Source of the DNA: Segetibacter aerophilus
Lineage (GTDB): Bacteria > Bacteroidota > Bacteroidia > Chitinophagales > Chitinophagaceae
Reading direction: 5' to 3'
Assembly (NCBI RefSeq): GCF_007991655.1
Contig: NZ_BJYT01000004.1
Span: 186,001-250,000 of the forward strand
DNA: 64,000 bases
The notes below the pieces were generated by a model. The model made no database searches and was not told the DNA's origin. It saw nothing but the letters and a program-made list of their open reading frames with translations. The translations under genes were made by a program, and so were the position numbers. Shown in pieces: positions 2,910 through 13,246 of this stretch. Each line of letters starts with the position of its first letter. The stretch's first letter is position 1.

Positions 2910-5900
2910 ATGTGTAAAAATCTATTCACTCTTCTATTAGTGTTATTTGGCCTTTTGTCTGCAAACGCAATAGCACAGACGACGCAAGCATCAATCTCCG
3001 GAATAGTATTGAACAATGACAAAAAACCACAGGTAGGTGCCTCGGTTACGGTTCGCAACGAATCAACAGGCTTTACTACAAAAGCTTTAACCAATGCACA
3101 AGGAGAATACACTTTTAAGGAGCTACCCCTTGGGGGACCATACACTGTAAGTGTTACTTATGTGGGGTTTGGAGAGCAAAAGATAAGCGGTTATACACTC
3201 AATCAGGGCGACGCAGTAAAGGTCAATATCAACATGCAGGTTAGGGAGAACACCCTTGAAGTGGTACAGGTTGTAGCATCAGGTTTAAAAAATAAAATAG
3301 AAAACATTGGCGCCGCTACTGCGATCTCTGCCCGTACAATGACACGGCTACCTGTTAACGGAAGAAACTTTACGACATTGATGGATCTTTCTCCATTAAG
3401 CAGGGGAGGAAACATTGCCGGCCAATTAAATTCTTCCACGAATTACACAATTGATGGTATGAATGCTAAGAACCCTACTTCCGCGGGATCAACCACAAGC
3501 CGTAGTGGTGCTCCATATTCCATTTCTATAGAAGCTGTTAGAGAATTTAAAGTAGTTACGAATCAATACGATGTTACCTATGGAAGAAGTGGAGGAGGAA
3601 CTGTTAGCGCTGTAACCAAGTCAGGAACTAACACATTAAGTGGAAGCGCATTTACTTACGGCCGCGACAATCGCCTGGCCAGTAGTTATGATATCAGGGG
3701 TAATAAGCGTAATAACAATTATTCTACTTACCAGTATGGATTCTCCTTAGGCGGTCCCATTATTAAAGATAAACTACATTATTTTGTTGCGTGGGATCAC
3801 CAGCAGGATAAACGTTCTTTAGTTATTGCTGATGTACAATCGCCAGCGGATGAGACAAGGTTCAACGTAACAAAAGCTACCCTTGATAATTTTGTAAGTA
3901 TTGCCCGTGCCAAGTACGGAGTTTCTAACAAAGCACAGTATGGTTCATTTGATAAAAACCGCGGTTCTGATGCTGTTTTTGCCCGTCTTGATTGGCAGAT
4001 CAACAGCAAAAACTTGCTAACGATTCGCGACAACTATACGAACGACCGAAATAAGTTAGGGCTGACAGATAATACGGCAATTAATCTATACGAATCAACT
4101 GGCAATGATTTCAACAGGGATAACAGTCTGCTTGCAACCTTACGTACTTCTGTTAGTTCACGCGTTACCAATGAGCTGAAAGTACAGCACCTCTACACTT
4201 TTCAGTCGAGCGAGCCCGGTGATGATCTGCCTGGGGCAAACATACCCAGGGCAATTGTAGAAAACGTTACCTCCTCAATTGGTGGAGTTACAAGGTCAAC
4301 AAATATTCAGATCGGGGGTCATCGTTTCGCCCAGGAAAACTTTGATAACAACGTAGTGCAGGTGGTCGATAATTTATATTACAACACGAATAAAATTAAA
4401 TACACGTTCGGGATAGACGCTATGAATACCCGTTCACATTCGAGATATGGTAGCGAGGTAAACGGGAGATTTCATTACATTAACCTTGCAGCATTTGAAA
4501 GCAATACACCTTACAGGTATTACCGCGAAGTACCTATTGTACCTGATCCAAGTGTAGTGGGCAATATCCAAAACTTTGGGGTATATGCGCAAATGCAAAC
4601 TACCCTCGCACCGGGTTTAGATCTGACAGCCGGTTTGCGCTTCGATTACGCTCATTATCCTTCATCTCCTCTAAATCAGTTAGTTTTTGATGAGCTGAAA
4701 TTACGAACAGACAATAAACTTAAATCTTCGGTAATACAGCCACGTTTTCAATTTACGTGGGATGTGAATGAAAAACGTACGGACTTTATTCGTTTCGGTG
4801 CCGGCATTTTTGCATCAGACATTAATAACTATGTCTTGATCAATAACCTGGTGTTTGATGGTAAGCATTCAGCTACCGTGGATGTAAGAGCCCCTAATAT
4901 TCCACCTGTTGATTTCACGGCTTATCGTGCTGATCCATCGAAAATTCCCACACTAACCGACTTTCAGCTGCCTACCATCAACACAAATGGTACGGATGCG
5001 CAAGTGCCGGTAATGTATAAGGCTAACCTCTCTTATAGCCATTATTTTACCGCTAAGTTTAAAATGAGTATAACAGGTTACGCAACACTAGGTCGACACA
5101 ATTATATGTATGTGGACCGTAACATGGCCGCCCAGCCTTTTTTTACATTGCCTGACGAAGACAACCGCGGCGTGTATGTGCCATTAAGCACCATGCCTGC
5201 AAACGGGGCCGGCGATTGGCTTGAAGGACGGATCAGTAAGAAACTGGGGCGCGTATTGGAATTAAATAGCCAAGGTAAGGTGAACCAGTTTGCAATAGTT
5301 GTCGATGGTACTTACCAGTACTTTAAAGATGGAGATATCTCTTTTAGTTACACTTGGAACGATACAAGGGATAATACGTCGTACAATGGTAACGTCGCCA
5401 ACACGGCTACTCTTTCCTTGCAGGTGAAAGATGATCCGAGGGATTTAAGTAAAATGAGTTATTCCGATAACCAGTTCAGGCATAAGGTAGTTGTTTATGG
5501 GTCCTTACCTACATTTTATGGTGTAAGTATTGGAATTCGCTACTCCGGAATTGGTGGCACCCGTTATACTTTGTTATCGGGTGCTAACAGTAACGCAGAT
5601 TTTGTTTCAGGTACAAATGACCTGGCATTTATTTTCGACCCTAATAATCCTGCTGTACCAGTGAACGTTCAAACAGGATTAACGGCAATTCTTAATAATT
5701 CTGATGCAAGCCCAAGTATCAAAAATTATATCACTAAGTACTTTGGCAAAATTGCAGAAAGGAACGGCGGCGTGAACGGTTTTTATGGCATCATCGATGT
5801 AAGGGTAAGCAAGAAATTTAAACTGTATAAAGCTCACAATCTCGAATTGTCGGCGGATGTGTTCAATGTGGCAAACGTCTTCAATAGAAACCGAGGTGTA

Positions 5901-6083: not shown

Positions 6084-6219
6084 AAGTTGTTCGCCTGAGC
6101 CTTTAATTAAAACGAGATTTTATCACATTATACATTTATTTAATTTGGCATATCTTCGTTTTCCAGTAACTACCTGAAAAAGGTGCATACTGAAGTTGAC
6201 AAGAAATAATGTCGATTTT

Positions 6220-7311
6220 ATGGAAACAACAGAACCGCTACCTTCAGGAAACCCCTTACAGCGACTGCCCGAATTAACGGAAGAAGTGTTCTTTGCTTTT
6301 CATCTGCAGATAAACAAGATGCTTTATCTCAACGAGGCGTTCGAACGCATTTGGAATATTTCCCGCGAGTCAATAGGTTCTAAGCTGAACTTGCTCCTAG
6401 AAACCGTTCATCCTGATGACAGGTCTCATGTGACATCTAGTTTTTTCAATCTCAAGGAGGATAAGCAAAAGCAAACTATCGAATTTCGAATACTGCAACC
6501 CGAAGGGAGTATCAAGTGGCTTAAGGTTGATGCGTACTTGTCGGAAAAAAGTGACAATAAAATTGTCGTCGGAACAGGTTCTGATATTACTGGGTACAAA
6601 AACTACATTGAGACCTTACATAAATTTTCGAATAAGAAGAATTCGATTCTACAAATTTTATCTCATGACCTTTTAGGACCGCTTGGAAATATTCAAATGT
6701 CTGCACTAATGCTGTCAAAATATCCGGAGATAGCAGAGAATGAGGATATTATGGAATTAATTGACCTGGTTGATAAAAACAGTAAGCGAAGTGTCACTAT
6801 GATTCGAGACTTGATTAACAGGGAATTTCTTGAATCAAGCGAAACAACATTGGTTAAACAAAGGGTTGATATTGTTTTAAAAATTCAGGAGATTATTGAG
6901 CAATACAAAGATCCGCATACGGTCGCTAGGCAAACTGTCGATTTTGAAACTCCCCTCAAGAGCCTGTATGTATCTATTGATGTCTCAAAGTTTATGCAGG
7001 TCGTTAATAACCTTCTCTTGAATGCTCAGAAGTTTACTCCTGACGGAGGACATATTGTAGTGAAGCTGGAAGATCAACAGCAAACGATCATTATAAAAGT
7101 GCAGGATAATGGAATTGGAATACCAGCAGAAATGCAGCCTTTTATTTTTAACAAATTTACAAAGGCAAGAAGAATGGGTATTAAAGGTGAACCTACTACC
7201 GGACTTGGTATGTCAATTATAAAAACAATTGTAGAATGGCACGATGGCCGCATCTGGTTTGAAAGTACAGAGGGAAAGGGGACTACTTTTTATGTTGAAA
7301 TACCAAAGTAA
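6220..7311 (+). CDS. PAS-domain sensor histidine kinase, soluble, orphan
   Basis: I take the ATG at 6220 (METTEPLPSG, 363 residues); a TTG 24 bp upstream is in frame but less likely. A PAS_3-type sensor domain spans about 15-125 (HPDDR, EFRILQPEGSIKWLKVDA, then the ITGYKNY exit). It is followed by a HisKA helix with the phospho-acceptor His149 in LSHDLLGPLGN, then an HATPase_c domain with N-box Asn268 (NNLLLNAQKFTPDGG), G1 box D296NGIGIP and G2 box TTGLGMSI. There is no transmembrane segment, so it should sense a cytoplasmic cue. No response regulator is nearby. A strong terminator follows 34 bp after the stop. Before the mobile element arrived, this gene would have faced ssrA convergently. 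Confidence 0.9.
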   Translation: METTEPLPSGNPLQRLPELTEEVFFAFHLQINKMLYLNEAFERIWNISRESIGSKLNLLLETVHPDDRSHVTSSFFNLKEDKQKQTIEFRILQPEGSIKWLKVDAYLSEKSDNKIVVGTGSDITGYKNYIETLHKFSNKKNSILQILSHDLLGPLGNIQMSALMLSKYPEIAENEDIMELIDLVDKNSKRSVTMIRDLINREFLESSETTLVKQRVDIVLKIQEIIEQYKDPHTVARQTVDFETPLKSLYVSIDVSKFMQVVNNLLLNAQKFTPDGGHIVVKLEDQQQTIIIKVQDNGIGIPAEMQPFIFNKFTKARRMGIKGEPTTGLGMSIIKTIVEWHDGRIWFESTEGKGTTFYVEIPK

Positions 7312-7345
7312 GTGATGGAGCTATTTGCTACAAAAATAAAAAAAT

Positions 7346-7379
7346 AAAAAAGTCTGCCACTTTAGTTGCAGACTTTTTT
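7346..7379. terminator. Bidirectional intrinsic terminator (also the probable ancestral ssrA terminator)
   Basis: A perfect 12-bp stem (AAAAAAGTCTGC at 7346-7357 and its complement at 7368-7379) with a ten-base loop is flanked by A- and T-runs, so it can stop transcription from both sides. It ends the histidine kinase gene. It also lies only 21 bp beyond the outer att copy at 7401-7421, where the 3' end of ssrA would have been before the element inserted. Confidence 0.85.
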
Positions 7380-7400
7380 ATTTTTTCTTAATGCCAAGTA

Positions 7401-7421
7401 GTGGAGCTGAGCGGAGTCGAA
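7401..7421. repeat. Outer att copy (direct repeat of ssrA 3' end)
   Basis: Identical over 21 bp to 9552-9572. It differs just outside (position 7400 A versus 9551 C; 7422 T versus 9573 C), so the shared core is exactly 21 bp. It carries no functional tmRNA remainder. Confidence 0.9.
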
Positions 7422-7520
7422 TGTTCCATATCTATCTTAAATCAGCCTTACTTAAACTTATATTAAATACTTGATTATTAATGTCTTAATTGGAATTGAC
7501 GTAAATAAAGGTAAACGGAA

Positions 7521-7601
7521 TTAAACCTAGATAAGTAAAAAATTGCTACCTTTTTTGCTACCTATTTATTTAATAAATAGTATCTTCAATGTTAAACCTA
7601 G
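7521..7601 (+). promoter_or_regulatory. Leader of the recombinase gene with duplicated TTAAACCTAG
   Basis: TTAAACCTAG occurs at 7521-7530 and again at 7592-7601, the second copy ending six bases before the ATG of the recombinase. The AT-rich region between them contains TTTATTTAATAAATAG, a short palindrome. The paired decamers could bind the recombinase itself or a repressor, coupling expression to occupancy of the element end. This is an inference from position; no known operator is recognised. Confidence 0.35.
7546..7565 (+). repeat. Candidate recombinase arm-type site, left
   Basis: CTACCTTTTTTGCTACCTAT matches 9479-9498 at 19 of 20 positions in the same orientation. Both copies lie inside the element, 124 bp and 53 bp from the respective att cores. 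Such paired subterminal repeats are typical of arm-binding sites of the N-terminal domain of tyrosine recombinases. The internal repetition GCTACCTTTTTTGCTACC adds a second half-site. Confidence 0.55.
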
Positions 7602-7607
7602 GCTACT

Positions 7608-8966
7608 ATGGGAACAATTCGCTACGTCCTTCGCTTAGATAAGTCTTTAAAAGATGGCACCTCTCCAGTTGATTTAATCTACCAAGTATCGGGTCAAAGA
7701 AGGTATTACAGAACTAGAATAAAACTTCATCCTTGCTCCTGGGATTCCGGAACGCAAAAAGCAGTTTATATTGATAAAAAATTGGCTAAATCATTTGCAA
7801 TCGATTTTTATTCCTTGCCCGCCTTCAGTGAAGTAGAAGAAACTAACATTCATTTAAATAAACTTTCCTTAACTATTATTGAAATTGAAAAGCGTTTTGA
7901 AATGGATAGCGTTGCTTATTCTTCTGAAATGGTTGTAGAGAAGCTTAACCAGCAACAGAAACCAGCCACTAAGAAGGAGGAAGCGTCTAATATTTTGTTT
8001 GATTTTATGCAAAAATATATTGACGAGCATAAAGACATTCGTACCAGGACGAGCATTTCTGTTTATAAATCAGTCAAGAACCACTTGCAGGATTATTGTA
8101 AAAGCACTGGCAAGAAAGTCACTTTCGATAATTTGGATTACAGTTTTTTTCAGTCTTTCCAGAATTTCTTATATCAAGACAGAACAGTTTTACGAGAAAA
8201 AAATGGCGAGGTAGAAAAGAAAATTATTAAAGGACTAAATAATACTACGGTAGCAAAGCAACTAAGCACAATAAAGACTTTTTTAAATTATGCTAAACAG
8301 CAGGGTGTTGAAGTCAGTGACAAGTATAAAGATTTTAAAATAAAACGTGAAAGCCTTGAGGTAATTGCACTTACGAACGAAGAGTTTGAAACACTTTTTC
8401 ACATGGATCTGTCAGGCAATAAGCGACTGGCCAATGTCCGAGATGTTTTTTGTTTTGCATGTGTTACTGGTTTAAGGTATTCAGATTTATGGCAATTGAA
8501 AAGAGAGCACATAAAAAGTGAAGAAATAAGGCTTACAGTTAAGAAAACAAAAGAAATCCTCACAATACCATTAAATCTTTATTCTCGGGCAATTTTGAAG
8601 AAATATGAAGGGATGTTAAAGCCTTTACCAGTTATTTCAAATCAAAATATGAATTATGCATTAAAGGATCTTTGCAAACTTGCTTGCATTGACGAACAAA
8701 TAGAGATTGTTCGTTTCAGAGGCATAAAGCGGGAAGCAATTACATATCCAAAATATGAGTTAGTTGGTGTTCATACAGGTCGAAAAACGTTTTGCACCTT
8801 GTCATTAGAAAAGGGGATGTCGGCAGAGGAAGTAATGTCAATTAGTGGCAATTTAGACTATAGAAGCTTCAAACGTTATGTGAAGGTTACAGAGCAGCGA
8901 AAAAAAGTTGTAATGGTTAAAGCCTGGGGAGGTTCTCATGAAGAAAATCAGCTAAAGGCAGTGTAA
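7608..8966 (+). CDS. Tyrosine recombinase (site-specific integrase) of the ssrA element
   Basis: This 452-residue protein has the layout of Bacteroidota integrases. An Arm DNA-binding beta domain lies at about 1-110 (GTIRYVLRLDKSLKDGTSPV, YYRTRIKLHP). A SAM-like core-binding domain follows at about 130-245, then the catalytic domain at about 255-445. Catalytic residues are Arg290 in TGLRYSDLW, Lys in the beta hairpin LTVKKTKEIL, His389 and Arg392 in HTGRKTF, and Tyr424 in FKRYVKV. The position normally held by His or Trp nine residues before the Tyr is Asn415 (SGNLDYRSFKRY), an unusual change. The gene is intact and converges on ssrA. It should catalyse insertion and excision between the 21-bp att cores; whether it is still active is unknown. 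Confidence 0.92.
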   Translation: MGTIRYVLRLDKSLKDGTSPVDLIYQVSGQRRYYRTRIKLHPCSWDSGTQKAVYIDKKLAKSFAIDFYSLPAFSEVEETNIHLNKLSLTIIEIEKRFEMDSVAYSSEMVVEKLNQQQKPATKKEEASNILFDFMQKYIDEHKDIRTRTSISVYKSVKNHLQDYCKSTGKKVTFDNLDYSFFQSFQNFLYQDRTVLREKNGEVEKKIIKGLNNTTVAKQLSTIKTFLNYAKQQGVEVSDKYKDFKIKRESLEVIALTNEEFETLFHMDLSGNKRLANVRDVFCFACVTGLRYSDLWQLKREHIKSEEIRLTVKKTKEILTIPLNLYSRAILKKYEGMLKPLPVISNQNMNYALKDLCKLACIDEQIEIVRFRGIKREAITYPKYELVGVHTGRKTFCTLSLEKGMSAEEVMSISGNLDYRSFKRYVKVTEQRKKVVMVKAWGGSHEENQLKAV

Positions 8967-9206
8967 TACTATTTTGACAGATCTTACTTTTTTTTCACCA
9001 GCTAAAATTTCAGTTCAACTCAAAACTATGTGCAAAAATTCAGTGCGCCTGTATTAAGGCGAGCGGTGTTTCTGTCGAACAAAAACTCATTGCTCGTTTA
9101 TTACTCCCGTTGGTCGTATAAAATGTCTTATCCCAAAATTGCCTCTAATATTTTTGATGAATGCACCGCATGATATTAAGTTTTGGCCCGACCAAAACAT
9201 AGCTGG

Positions 9207-9261
9207 CTCACACTCTCTAATTTTACTCACACTCTCAAATTTTACCTTCACTGTAATTTTA
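9207..9261 (+). repeat. Three tandem 17-19 bp iterons
   Basis: CTCACACTCTCTAATTTTA (9207-9225) is followed directly by CTCACACTCTCAAATTTTA (9226-9244), one mismatch in 19, and by a shorter CCTTCACTGTAATTTTA (9245-9261). The head-to-tail arrangement with no spacer is like replication iterons or accessory-factor sites. No initiator gene is present in the element. Confidence 0.7.
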
Positions 9262-9478
9262 CGCCTCCAATTTCAGGTGCGAGTAATATTTTGCACTTTA
9301 AGTTTCTCCGAACTTGTTAAAGGAGGCAGGTAAAATATTTATGACTGGGGCGGGTGAAAAAGAAAAAGTAGAGCAGTACCTCTCATTCCCATGTGAAAAA
9401 TATCAAGGTTGTTTTACACTTGAGGAAAGCTTTGTGGCTCGGTAAGTGTAAAAACATATGAAAATCCTTTTAAATTTA

Positions 9479-9498
9479 CTACCTTTTTTGCTCCCTAT
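9479..9498 (+). repeat. Candidate recombinase arm-type site, right
   Basis: CTACCTTTTTTGCTCCCTAT, 19/20 identical to 7546-7565 and in direct orientation, 53 bp inside the right att core. See the left copy for the reasoning. Confidence 0.55.
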
Positions 9499-9548
9499 AA
9501 AAAAAATAAGAGGATAAGATATTGATTTACAATACACTTATCCTCTTA
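9499..9548 (-). terminator. Terminator of ssrA supplied by the integrative element
   Basis: Read on the minus strand just after the tmRNA 3' end, a 12-bp perfect stem (arms 9537-9548 and 9507-9518, 18-base loop) is followed by a run of eight U (complement of 9499-9506). This is a standard intrinsic terminator. It lies wholly inside the inserted element, so the insertion replaced the original downstream sequence and restored both the RNA 3' end and termination. Confidence 0.85.
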
Positions 9549-9551
9549 ACC

Positions 9552-9572
9552 GTGGAGCTGAGCGGAGTCGAA
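9552..9572. repeat. Inner att copy within ssrA
   Basis: 21-bp direct repeat partner of 7401-7421. It covers the T-arm 3' half and the acceptor 3' strand of the tmRNA, the usual crossover site for tRNA/tmRNA-targeting recombinases. Confidence 0.9.
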
Positions 9573-9927
9573 CCGCTGTCCAAACATATTTGCCATAAGC
9601 CTTCTACATGCTTATTCCGGAATTATTTGTCGGGAAGCAGCCGGAGCCGGACGAACCAATCACTTCCTTAGCTGTATGGTCTTACACTACAGTCACAGCC
9701 TTCCGTAGTGGCAACCCGTTTTGTTTGTTTGATTCGGCGGGGAAGCGTGGTAACAGGTCAACCTGCATTCCCGGCCATAATGGGTGCTAATTCTCTGAAT
9801 TAAGCAGCCATGGCGTAAGTATTTTCGCCTTTTGTTTGTTGAGCTTTCAGATTAAAGTGCTAATAACACAACGCACTGCATGCTTATACCCACAACAACC
9901 TATGCTGTCAAAACCAGGTACAGCCCC
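9553..9927 (-). ncRNA. ssrA: Transfer-messenger RNA (tmRNA)
   Basis: Read leftwards, the RNA begins GGGGCTGTACCTGGTTTTGAC and ends with a T-arm (GGTTCGACTCC) and CAGCTCCA. The seven-base acceptor stem GGGGCTG/CAGCTCC pairs with one G-U. CCA is not encoded. The tag frame lies at 9829-9800: GGC GAA AAT ACT TAC GCC ATG GCT GCT TAA, giving tag GENTYAMAA after the charged alanine. The RNA, with SmpB, rescues stalled ribosomes and marks the unfinished protein for proteolysis. The 3' end overlaps the att core of the mobile element but is intact. About 375 nt is a normal size. Confidence 0.95.
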
Positions 9928-10005
9928 ATTGTTGTTGCGCAAATTTACTAAACATTGCTATTCCAATCGTTATCTTAACGTTTTTATTATGTTCTTACTA
10001 TAGCT

Positions 10006-11802
10006 ATGAACCAACAGAAGACACCAGGAGAAATATACAAACAACAGGTAAGTTATTATTCGGATCTCTTAAGAAAACTAAAAAGTAAACGAAGCAATAT
10101 TGGTTGGTTAAGATTAGTAATAGTTCTAGCGATACTACTTCTCATTTATTCTCTTTTCTTCAAATCCTCCCTGATAACATGGATACTAGTCGCTGCAGGA
10201 ATTGCTCTTTTCCTTTATGTAATTTCTATTGACGCAGATAACAATGAAAAGATAGCCGACGCTCAGCGATTGTTATTTATTAACCGGGAAGAACTGGAGA
10301 TACTATCAGGAAATTATCAAAACAGGGAAGACGGCATTTCTTTTTTACCTCATGAACATCCCTATGCCGGTGACATAGATTTGTTCGGAACAGCATCTCT
10401 TTACCAATATATAAGTCGTTGCACATCGCAGCAATCGAAACAATTATTAGCGACCGCCCTGCTCCAGGCATCTGAAGAAAACGTCATAATAGATCGACAA
10501 GCGGCAGCAAAAAGCCTGGCTCCACAATGGGCGTGGCGGCAGAATCTGCAATCAACGGGTATGGCAAATCCTTTGACTTTTGCAACCGAACAAAAGATAA
10601 AGGTATGGCTGTCTATGCCTAAGCCATTAAAGCAGGCTTTGTGGAAAATATTGCCTGTTGTATTCACTGCTATCACGTTAGCCACTGTAGCAGCTTACCT
10701 TTTTGGTTGGATCAATTCTTCTGTTTTCTGGCTGCTTGTTTTTGCTTACTTTCTTTTTGCTAAATACACAAGTGCAAAAGTAATTCAGACATATACGGCA
10801 CTTACAAAAATCGAAGGTGAACTAGACACGCTCTACAAGCAATTGTTGTTGGTAGAAAAGTTGCCTTGTAGTTCGCCATTATTAGACTCTTATAAAGAGA
10901 TTTTAGTGTCTAAAAAGGGCGGCACTGAAGGCATTAGAGATTTAAAGGAAATACTAAAACGCTTTGATTTTCGGTTAAACCTCCTTGTGTTCTTTGTTTT
11001 AAACACGTTCTTTCTCTGGGACGTTCGGCAAACGCTAAGCCTGAATAAATGGAAAGACAAGTATGCACTGGTAGTGCCGGAATGGTTTAAAATATTACAA
11101 AACATCGAACTGGTAAATACCCTTGCAACACTTACTTTCAATCATCCTACATGGAATTTTCCAACCAATTCCAGTGAACATTTTACTTTGATAGGGGAGA
11201 ACATCGGGCATCCGTTAATAGATGAAAAAAAGCGTGTTGATAATTCCTTCTCTACCAGCGGAACGGGGAAAGTAGCCATCATAACAGGTTCTAATATGGC
11301 GGGCAAAAGTACTTTTTTGCGCAGTATTGCCGTCAATCTTGTACTTGCACAATTAGGAGCGCCGGTGTGTGCAAGCACATTTGAGTTTAGCCCTGTTAAG
11401 CTTTATAGCAGTATGCGAATTGCCGATAATCTTGCAGAAAATACTTCTACTTTTTACGCCGAATTAAAGAAATTGAAAAGTATCATTGACCAGGTAAAAC
11501 AACATGAAAAGGTCTTCATTTTACTCGATGAAATTCTGCGAGGCACCAATTCTCTTGATCGTCATACAGGCTCAGAGGCATTGATCCGACAATTAATAAG
11601 GGAGCAGGCTGTAGCAATAATTGCAACGCATGATGTAGAACTTGCCAATCTTTATAAAACGCAGCAAGGTGCTGCCAGCAACTATCATTTCGACGTTCAG
11701 GTTGAAGGAGAGGAATTGTACTTCGATTACAAGTTAAAGAGCGGCATTTGCCAAAGTATGAACGCATCTTTGTTGATGAAGAAGATCGGCATTGAAATGT
11801 AA
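10006..11802 (+). CDS. Membrane-anchored MutS-like ATPase
   Basis: 598 residues. Two hydrophobic hairpins (about 33-75 and 213-250) predict four membrane segments. A helical region follows, then a MutS-type ABC ATPase domain with Walker A GSNMAGKST (428-436), the signature region ENTSTFYAELKKLK, Walker B VFILLDE (503-509) and the closing His in ATHDVELA. The mismatch-recognition and connector domains of true MutS are absent. This architecture occurs widely in Bacteroidota and is usually annotated as a MutS family DNA mismatch repair protein, but a role in mismatch repair is not established for it. It is transcribed away from ssrA, 78 bp from the tmRNA 5' end. The function is unknown beyond ATP use at a membrane. 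Confidence 0.85.
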   Translation: MNQQKTPGEIYKQQVSYYSDLLRKLKSKRSNIGWLRLVIVLAILLLIYSLFFKSSLITWILVAAGIALFLYVISIDADNNEKIADAQRLLFINREELEILSGNYQNREDGISFLPHEHPYAGDIDLFGTASLYQYISRCTSQQSKQLLATALLQASEENVIIDRQAAAKSLAPQWAWRQNLQSTGMANPLTFATEQKIKVWLSMPKPLKQALWKILPVVFTAITLATVAAYLFGWINSSVFWLLVFAYFLFAKYTSAKVIQTYTALTKIEGELDTLYKQLLLVEKLPCSSPLLDSYKEILVSKKGGTEGIRDLKEILKRFDFRLNLLVFFVLNTFFLWDVRQTLSLNKWKDKYALVVPEWFKILQNIELVNTLATLTFNHPTWNFPTNSSEHFTLIGENIGHPLIDEKKRVDNSFSTSGTGKVAIITGSNMAGKSTFLRSIAVNLVLAQLGAPVCASTFEFSPVKLYSSMRIADNLAENTSTFYAELKKLKSIIDQVKQHEKVFILLDEILRGTNSLDRHTGSEALIRQLIREQAVAIIATHDVELANLYKTQQGAASNYHFDVQVEGEELYFDYKLKSGICQSMNASLLMKKIGIEM

Positions 11803-11899
11803 AAGCTTTTTGGAGTTTATTAGATTAGGAAGAAGGTAGAAAACAGCACAGTTCCTTAAGCCCTTCCAATTACTTTCGATCTTTTTAGAACAGATTCTC

Positions 11900-13246
11900 T
11901 TATTTGAACAATCTCCAAAAGTCCAGACCTAAAGCATAAGCCATCAGTCCCAGAAGTAATACCATACCTACCATCTGGGCATACTCCATAAACTTATCAC
12001 TTGGCTTGCGACCACTCACCATTTCCACCAAAGTAAATAAAGCATGGCCGCCATCAAGCGCCGGGATAGGCAGTATATTCATAAAGGCGAGAATAATCGA
12101 AAATATGGCTGTAAGAGTCCAAAACTTTTGCCAGTCCCATAAGCTTGGGAAAGTATTGCCGATACTGATTACACTACCCAAAGAGTCGCTTGCATTTACC
12201 TTACCCGTAAACAACTGCTTCAATCCGGTAACATAACGGTCTAAAGTTTCAAAGCATTTATTAAAGCCAACAGGAAATGATTGAGCTAGCGTATAAGTCT
12301 TTACAGTTGTTCCAAACAAAGTACCGGGCGTTCTAAAGTATATTCCTAAAGCACTCTTCTCATTAACCTTCACTTTTACGTCAACCGTATCTGTTCCCCG
12401 CAGCAATTTCATTGGGACATCAACGTTTTTCAACTTGCTTTTTTCCGCATCAAATTCATGAAAGAATTGAACAGGTTTATTATTGAAAGCAATGAGTTTA
12501 TCCCCTCTTTCAACTTTACCTTGGGTGAAGGTTGCACTCTGTGCAACGGAGTCGAATATTACCGGGAAGCGAACGTCAATGAATCCTTGCAGTTTGTTTT
12601 TATTTAGTTGCTTAACTAACCCATTAGGAATTGGAATTGTTACCGACTGACCGTTCCTGTCAACCTGTAATTGTTTGGCTTCAGACAATATAATTTCAGC
12701 TTCTACAGTTTCAATGTTATCGACCGGTTTTCCGCCAATTGAGACAATTTTATCGCCGTCTTGCAGACCTATTTTTGTTGCAAGCGTGTCGGCATGTATA
12801 CCGTAAGTAAGATTCTTTGCAGGTAAATATTCCTCACCCCACACATACATAATCATTATAAAAAGAGCGATAGCAAGCACAATGTTTACAACCACTCCGC
12901 CGATCATAATTATTAATCGTTGCCATGCTTTTTTGCTTCTAAACTCCCACGGCTCGGCTGGCTTTTTAAGTTGCTCTTTGTCCATGCTCTCATCTACCAT
13001 TCCGGATATTTTTACATATCCTCCAAATGGTACCCACCCAAGACCATATTCGGTTTCACCTATTTTTTTCTTCCATAAACTTATTCCCGGATTGAAGAAA
13101 AGGTAGAATTTTTCTACCCTGCATTTAAACCATTTGGCGGGAAAGAAGTGGCCCATCTCATGTAGTACCACCAATATAGAAAACGATAAAATAAATTGTC
13201 CTGTTTTAACTGCTACGCTACTCCAGTCTATAGCTAATAATGTCAT
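11900..13246 (-). CDS. rseP: RseP-type site-2 zinc metalloprotease
   Basis: 448 residues. The zinc-binding motif H29EMGH lies in the first transmembrane helix (FSILVVLHEMGHFFPAKWF) and the second S2P motif NILPIPALDGGHALF near the C-terminus supplies the Asp ligand. A PDZ domain is visible (IGLQDGDKIVSIGGKPV), with a second degenerate one after it. RseP cleaves membrane-embedded anti-sigma factors and leftover signal peptides inside the inner membrane. The gene lies downstream of dxr on the same strand, a pairing conserved in many bacteria, though here separated by 262 bp containing a dispersed repeat. Length is normal for the family. Confidence 0.93.
   Translation of the reverse strand: MTLLAIDWSSVAVKTGQFILSFSILVVLHEMGHFFPAKWFKCRVEKFYLFFNPGISLWKKKIGETEYGLGWVPFGGYVKISGMVDESMDKEQLKKPAEPWEFRSKKAWQRLIIMIGGVVVNIVLAIALFIMIMYVWGEEYLPAKNLTYGIHADTLATKIGLQDGDKIVSIGGKPVDNIETVEAEIILSEAKQLQVDRNGQSVTIPIPNGLVKQLNKNKLQGFIDVRFPVIFDSVAQSATFTQGKVERGDKLIAFNNKPVQFFHEFDAEKSKLKNVDVPMKLLRGTDTVDVKVKVNEKSALGIYFRTPGTLFGTTVKTYTLAQSFPVGFNKCFETLDRYVTGLKQLFTGKVNASDSLGSVISIGNTFPSLWDWQKFWTLTAIFSIILAFMNILPIPALDGGHALFTLVEMVSGRKPSDKFMEYAQMVGMVLLLGLMAYALGLDFWRLFK

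Follow-up and report, generated by a model that had tools for sequence, protein, structure and literature searches.

A one-gene integrative element at ssrA in Segetibacter aerophilus with two putative origins of transfer and probable mobilization in trans

In the window, by which we mean the whole 64,000-nucleotide stretch of Segetibacter aerophilus DNA analysed here, the 3' end of the tmRNA gene ssrA is duplicated as a perfect 21-bp direct repeat (21/21 identical; 7401-7421 and 9552-9572, 2151 bp from start to start), and a search of the 5.89-Mb draft genome (G000) that allowed up to 3 mismatches gave no further copy (reversed-pattern control, 0). Between the repeats lies one clear gene, an open frame for a tyrosine recombinase with three Pfam domains; ORF and domain searches found no second convincing gene between them, and neither a cargo gene nor an excisionase gene was recognised in the element. 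These data confirm that the 2.15-kb segment is a one-gene integrative element at ssrA, as a first-pass annotation had proposed from the duplicated ssrA end and the single recombinase gene. The open recombinase frame, the perfect repeats and the ordered non-coding sites remarked on in that annotation are likewise borne out. The features of the locus are as follows.

7339-7386, no strand: hairpin beyond the distal repeat (inverted repeat I1, fold -25.5 kcal/mol)
7401-7421, plus strand: att repeat, copy distal to ssrA, identical to 9552-9572
7543-7562, plus strand: putative arm-type site for the integrase, TTGCTACC-n4-TTGCTACC, lying upstream of its gene (repeat D1)
7608-8966, plus strand: tyrosine recombinase, 452 aa (Pfam Arm-DNA-bind_5, Phage_int_SAM_5, Phage_integrase)
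9053-9123, plus strand: module A, putative origin of transfer (57.2 bits, E 5.5e-17 over 64 kb)
9158-9208, minus strand: module B, a putative transfer origin differing in type from A (31.2 bits, E 4.4e-9 over 64 kb)
9207-9244, minus strand, noted to 9262: two 19-bp tandem repeats, CTCACACTCTC-AATTTTAC, adjoining module B (D6, 95% identical)
9341-9445, plus strand: 34-codon open frame after a GGAGG-like stretch, inside ORF 9314-9445
9476-9495, plus strand: second putative arm-type site for the integrase, oriented like the first and close to the ssrA end (repeat D1)
9507-9548, minus strand: hairpin directly after ssrA, inside the element (inverted repeat I14, fold -20.6 kcal/mol)
9552-9572, plus strand: att repeat, ssrA 3' end (ARAGORN tmRNA end and repeat search)
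9552-9927, minus strand: ssrA (tmRNA), the target gene, intact (ARAGORN; Rfam tmRNA model)

The Rfam tmRNA model match spans positions 1-374 of ssrA. When the flanks of the element are joined in silico, ARAGORN returns a normal tmRNA gene beside a strong hairpin, together with a second, shorter permuted tmRNA candidate at the same place. The hairpin at 7339-7386 is probably the former ssrA terminator, common to the convergent kinase gene, and that at 9507-9548 is a probable replacement terminator; because the element's own hairpin lies right behind the ssrA end, the element appears to replace the terminator that it displaced. Neither hairpin was flagged by a simple terminator scan, non-tmRNA matches to Rfam between 6800 and 10200 all fall below gathering scores and lie nearly all on the A/T-rich hairpin at 7339-7386, and a promoter scan gave 5 sites against 8.4 expected. 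The sites at 7543-7562 and 9476-9495 would be arm-type integrase sites, and sites resembling them also adjoin related integrases; moreover, a match to 9472-9498 in genome G292 lies just upstream of an integrase, which fits an arm site. The tandem repeats beside module B are possibly binding sites, and the 34-codon frame, for which no relative was found, may not be a gene.

ssrA was found in 9 of the 10 genomes of the genus, G000 included. All of the other eight carry the 21-bp sequence with 0-1 mismatch and have different DNA beyond it, and the stretches fetched around ssrA in these eight genomes contain no integrase match. In the same stretches a MutS-like gene lies upstream of ssrA in six of the eight and an RseP-like gene is present in six, genome G004 having neither. 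The downstream side of ssrA is thus variable in the genus, and the empty site that the first-pass annotation proposed to look for in close relatives was not seen, there being no exact one among the genus genomes examined. The left flank does not yield an empty site either, because none of the other genus genomes holds a close relative of the kinase gene at 6196-7311 (best among the matches listed, 35% identity). A paralogue of this kinase gene, 61-64% identical and split into two frames, is found elsewhere in the same genome (G000:C35:6410-7515). In genome G007 (L049, contig C68), 74 bp beyond ssrA are 82% identical to the element's end, hairpin included, which suggests that a related element once sat at ssrA in this genome. 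A further arm-like site, in opposite orientation, occurs ~1.1 kb past the element-like DNA in this locus, and the region as a whole (L049, G007:C68, 8938-10083) is perhaps a remnant of a related element. In a family-wide search, copies of the ssrA 3' end were matched in 23 of 244 genomes and were found twice only in G000 and G176, the two copies in the latter being ~700 kb apart.

The recombinase retains the catalytic motifs R, K, HxxR and Y and has Asn at the usual His/Trp position, where 36 aligned relatives have His (34/36), Trp (1/36) or Ile (1/36); the presence of Asn at this position of the catalytic site counts against present activity. The closest integrase is encoded in L087, a 22.6-kb IMG/VR record (81% identity in the best segment, with a frame break), and over 310 codons the comparison of the two gives dN 0.10 and a saturated dS of 2.5, a ratio of ~0.04, indicating that the integrase has been under purifying selection. 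Searches with tblastn against plasmids (51 records) and phages (62 records) gave matches only below 60% identity. A 71% identical integrase is cut by a contig end in G005 (L054, G005:C15, 3-128), where its initial 42 residues are preserved and an arm-like site lies upstream of them. It is conceivable that the segment is the dead remnant of a larger mobilizable element, from which replication and mobilization genes have been deleted so that the integrase and the origins are left over and immobile. The Asn residue speaks in favour of this, as do the broken integrase relatives in two members of the same genus, Segetibacter koreensis and G007, and the additional genes that adjoin related integrases, such as the HTH, AAA and DUF6371 genes in L087. 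The perfect att repeats, however, speak against a dead remnant, as does the finding that at integrase sites otherwise invariant among five sequences (303 columns) window-only changes are as few as L087-only changes (2 and 2).

Further evidence comes from the non-coding third of the element, that is, the 585 bases after the integrase (8967-9551), which we compared with 396 genomes of the order. Matches were obtained in 12 of these genomes, and two segments gave sensible ones. The segment at ~9054-9122 matches G260, G044, G412, G496 and a second place in G000, in each case just upstream of a small gene that is followed by a relaxase-like gene, and for 9178-9209 the match is in G292, where the opposite strand agrees at 31 of 32 positions ahead of a second kind of MobC-relaxase pair. 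These segments define modules A and B, which are 34 bp apart and in opposite orientation. Profiles trained on mob-linked sites of other loci only (17 for A and 20 for B, the window and other orphans being excluded) give the window scores listed above, which exceed the best obtained in 2000 dinucleotide shuffles of the stretch (9.0 bits for A, 12.1 bits for B); these scores have to be read with the proviso that we had already seen the window matches when designing the survey patterns, so that at the positions covered by the patterns the training sites are similar to the window; the flanks of A and, beyond B, the motif TCATGC..GCATTCA were not part of the patterns. Both modules score lower than their mob-linked counterparts (57.2 against 63-87 bits for A, and 31.2 against 58-111 bits for B). 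Weak cross-matches occur between the A and B hairpins, most clearly in L089 and L114. Since none of the other loci scanned with the profiles holds both modules, the two-origin arrangement is a single case among the loci fetched. Several other non-coding matches were dropped, those in L079, L081, L082, L083 and L086 because they overlap ordinary open frames and that in L084 because it lies between ordinary genes. A third module at ~9348-9372, suggested by short stretches common to L082 and L090, was rejected because the L082 match lies, as judged by eye, inside a carbonic anhydrase-like frame.

In a survey of 394 genomes of the family, the module A pattern was found at 20 sites in 14 genomes and the module B pattern, at up to 3 mismatches, at 24 sites in 21 genomes; reversed controls gave 0 for both. 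With the window copy counted in each total, and with most loci fetched as 1.5 kb on each side of the site, 17 of the 20 A sites and 20 of the 24 B sites lie beside MobC/relaxase genes. The fetched locus holds a relaxase at 16 A sites and 20 B sites, and one further A locus, L116, which is cut by a contig end, has MobC. A sites without mob genes are those of the window, L103 (G015) and L108 (G169), and B sites without a relaxase are those of the window, L127 (G506), L143 (G069) and L144 (G275); at the five other orphan places no mob relatives were found at E 1e-5 in stretches of 12-18 kb. Representatives that were tested match PF03432 (relaxases, 4/4) or are NikA-like mobilization proteins (2/2). 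The end of the site lies 14-121 bp before a cleanly called MobC frame in 15 of the 17 mob-linked A loci and 16 of the 20 mob-linked B loci; the site is spanned by an overlong frame in L112, L123, L140, L141 and L142, and an antisense frame masks MobC in L104. Given that promoters also sit at this distance upstream of MobC, modules A and B might be mobC operators or promoters and not transfer origins. The element, however, has no mobC to regulate, and yet the hairpins and flanking motifs are kept. The oriT of a MOBP system lies upstream of relaxosome genes and takes the form of a hairpin flanked by conserved sequence, and this likeness also counts against a regulatory role, which we consider extremely improbable. 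Modules A and B gave no DNA match in the plasmid collection in distant blastn searches.

The first-pass annotation had also stated that the element lacks transfer genes, and this is correct insofar as six MobC and relaxase queries gave 0 matches in the window (tblastn, E 1e-3). Elsewhere in G000 there are five relaxase genes. Those on contigs C4, C17 and C58 are of type A, with 54% identity to the relaxase of G260 over 239-332 aligned positions, and each has an A site upstream as detected by the profile. The relaxase on C28 belongs to type B and shares 54% identity with that of G292 over 253 positions; this contig ends near MobC, so that the locus's own site lies beyond the available sequence. 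The fifth relaxase, on C29, is unlike types A and B. For three relaxases scanned against NCBIfam, the nearest models are Bacteroid_MobB and TraI_MobP, all below curated cut-offs. One type A mob locus (L089, G000:C4:14000-33900, at 9509-12780) is located on the same contig as the window; its MobC and relaxase frames are open and, by eye, an upstream primase-like gene is split into two frames. TIGR03783, which represents one Bacteroidetes conjugation ATPase family, has no match in G000, a result that again favours a dead remnant. On the other hand, 8967-9551 shows no recognisable pieces of genes that might have been lost, whether mob, primase or others, and two unrelated modules have both been kept. 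We therefore regard the remnant explanation as rather unlikely. The doubt about plain decay voiced in the first-pass annotation is upheld by the missing gene fragments and by the two modules, and is weakened by the Asn for His replacement and the lack of a TIGR03783 match.

Because the closest integrase comes from an IMG/VR record, the segment could also be a small island carried by a phage, as a satellite or by transduction, to which the transfer-type modules are irrelevant. The target gene and integrase type are the same as those of Pseudomonas tmRNA islands moved by a jumbo phage, as described in PMC12595487. Like the element, the islands I23, I44 and I55 treated there are inserted in tmRNA, are flanked by direct repeats and have a tyrosine integrase and no transfer genes; they differ in carrying AlpA and defence cargo, and it is I55 that the jumbo phage moves (PMC12595487). 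The element, in contrast, has no second gene, and so neither the AlpA-like gene and cargo of an I55-type island nor a packaging gene. In addition, the exact A and B patterns gave 0 matches in the IMG/VR collection, and no phage structural gene was confirmed among the 8 proteins of L087 that were scanned, a 538-aa gene there matching a phrog without known function. A phage-carried island is thus, in our view, highly unlikely. The first 5275 bp of L087 (1-5275) hold the integrase, then HTH, AAA and DUF6371 genes and an A-like module of 35 bits. There is no relaxase in the whole 22.6-kb record, which may be a fragment.

Taken together, these observations make it probable, though by no means certain, that the unit belongs to the relaxase-less integrative mobilizable elements (iOriT), that it has two origins of transfer and no recognisable cargo, and that other elements mobilize it in trans. 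Besides the Asn residue and the missing TIGR03783 match, the failure to recognise an excisionase gene, to find an exact empty site or to detect either module among plasmids weighs against this reading, as does the occurrence of the two-origin arrangement in a single fetched locus. Like members of that class, it has its own recombinase and att sites at a specific target, it contains neither a relaxase nor mating-pore genes, and its putative origins are related, by sequence and position, to the oriTs of relaxase-bearing elements. It is not a canonical integrative mobilizable element (IME), which encodes its own relaxase. A CIME is flanked by att sites and has no recombinase gene, and the element has a 452-aa recombinase frame. 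Phage satellites carry phage-derived packaging, capsid or regulatory genes, and here the integrase is the only clear gene. The first-pass annotation had entertained a self-mobile unit; this does not agree with the lack of a relaxase or MobC relative and of a second convincing gene, and since the modules resemble two transfer origins the element would depend on other elements. We infer that A and B are nicked and that the element excises and transfers. The integrase, perhaps with the excisionase of another element, would recombine the 21-bp repeats and release a circle, whereupon ssrA would regain its old terminator. A type A or type B MobC-relaxase pair supplied by another element would then nick the matching module, and the single strand would exit via the conjugative apparatus of an element in the same cell. 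After arrival in the recipient, the circle would be inserted by the integrase into the 3' end of ssrA, bringing the new terminator with it. Whether the element is a purely selfish, cargo-free hitchhiker, made up of an integrase and two transfer origins and movable by either of two unrelated MobC-relaxase systems, is in our judgement evenly balanced. Moreover, with no conjugation ATPase of the searched family in the genome, the home relaxases may themselves belong to hitchhikers, making the element a hitchhiker on hitchhikers. If our reading is right, the element shows the minimal needs of an integrative mobilizable element with a site-specific integrase, extends the relaxase-less kind to Bacteroidota, and provides two oriT families for which the same genome encodes candidate relaxases. 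It would also be a warning that islands at tRNA and tmRNA genes taken for 'integrase-only' may be mobile, because their key parts are non-coding and are missed by annotation.

Plasmids with only an oriT, or with several oriTs, are reportedly the subject of one further study. IMEs without a relaxase have been described from Firmicutes and Proteobacteria, according to a section of a 2017 review (PMC5704250). As presented there, MGIVflInd1-type islands resemble the window element in having their own tyrosine integrase, no relaxase, a partner-like oriT and mobilization in trans, and differ in that they are 18-33 kb long, carry an excisionase and other genes and one oriT, come from Gammaproteobacteria and have proven transfer (PMC5704250); the window element measures 2.15 kb, has no recognised excisionase or cargo and has two modules, and its transfer is predicted from sequence. 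MTnSag1 and tISCpe8 are also very small (1.7-2.0 kb), lack a relaxase and use another element's machinery, whereas they have a DDE transposase and a lincosamide resistance gene, occur in Firmicutes and have their oriT inside the resistance gene and not clearly related to that of the helper (PMC5704250). NBU1, Tn4555, Tn4399 and Tn5520 belong to the same phylum as the window element and have, in the review's account, a tyrosine integrase in most cases and a MOBP-type relaxase, which is also the type of the candidate partners in this study; unlike the window element, they encode this relaxase themselves (PMC5704250). The label iOriT and plasmids with several oriTs appear in PMC11389934, multi-oriT plasmids also in PMC7755788. 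The origins of such oriT-only or multi-oriT plasmids match the relaxases of other elements, as is the case here, although those are plasmids and the window element is a chromosomal unit with its own integrase (PMC11389934, PMC7755788). A partial literature search found no relaxase-less, two-oriT integrative element in Bacteroidota, which is weak evidence of novelty.

Other loci in the survey show that a recombinase and a transfer-type site without a relaxase are not unique to the window. In G275:C242 (L150, 1-3553), tRNA-Arg, an integrase, a B site and a Kinase-PolyVal gene occur without a relaxase, and 29 core bases of the B site are identical to those of the mob locus on C235 of the same genome; similar 23-bp repeats lie at 62-84 and 3340-3362, and the contig ends ~60 bases beyond, before the far att site. 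In G169:C4 (L147, 6230-8941), a serine recombinase at tRNA-Glu is accompanied by an A site and no mob genes, and although the element ends were not found this may be a relaxase-less element that uses a recombinase of a different type. No mob relatives were found in the 3.8-21 kb around L038, L039, L051-L054 and L057, which hold close integrase relatives. Of the cases encountered in this analysis, that of the window is the most reduced and no other has two modules, and the element would be the most reduced of a wider set in the family that combines a recombinase with an oriT (G275 at tRNA-Arg and perhaps G169 and L087). In L148 (G506:C7, 8903-9556), no recombinase or mob gene was seen in 17.9 kb and a lone B site lies ~550 bp from tRNA-Pro; L146 and L149 look like isolated sites or remnants.
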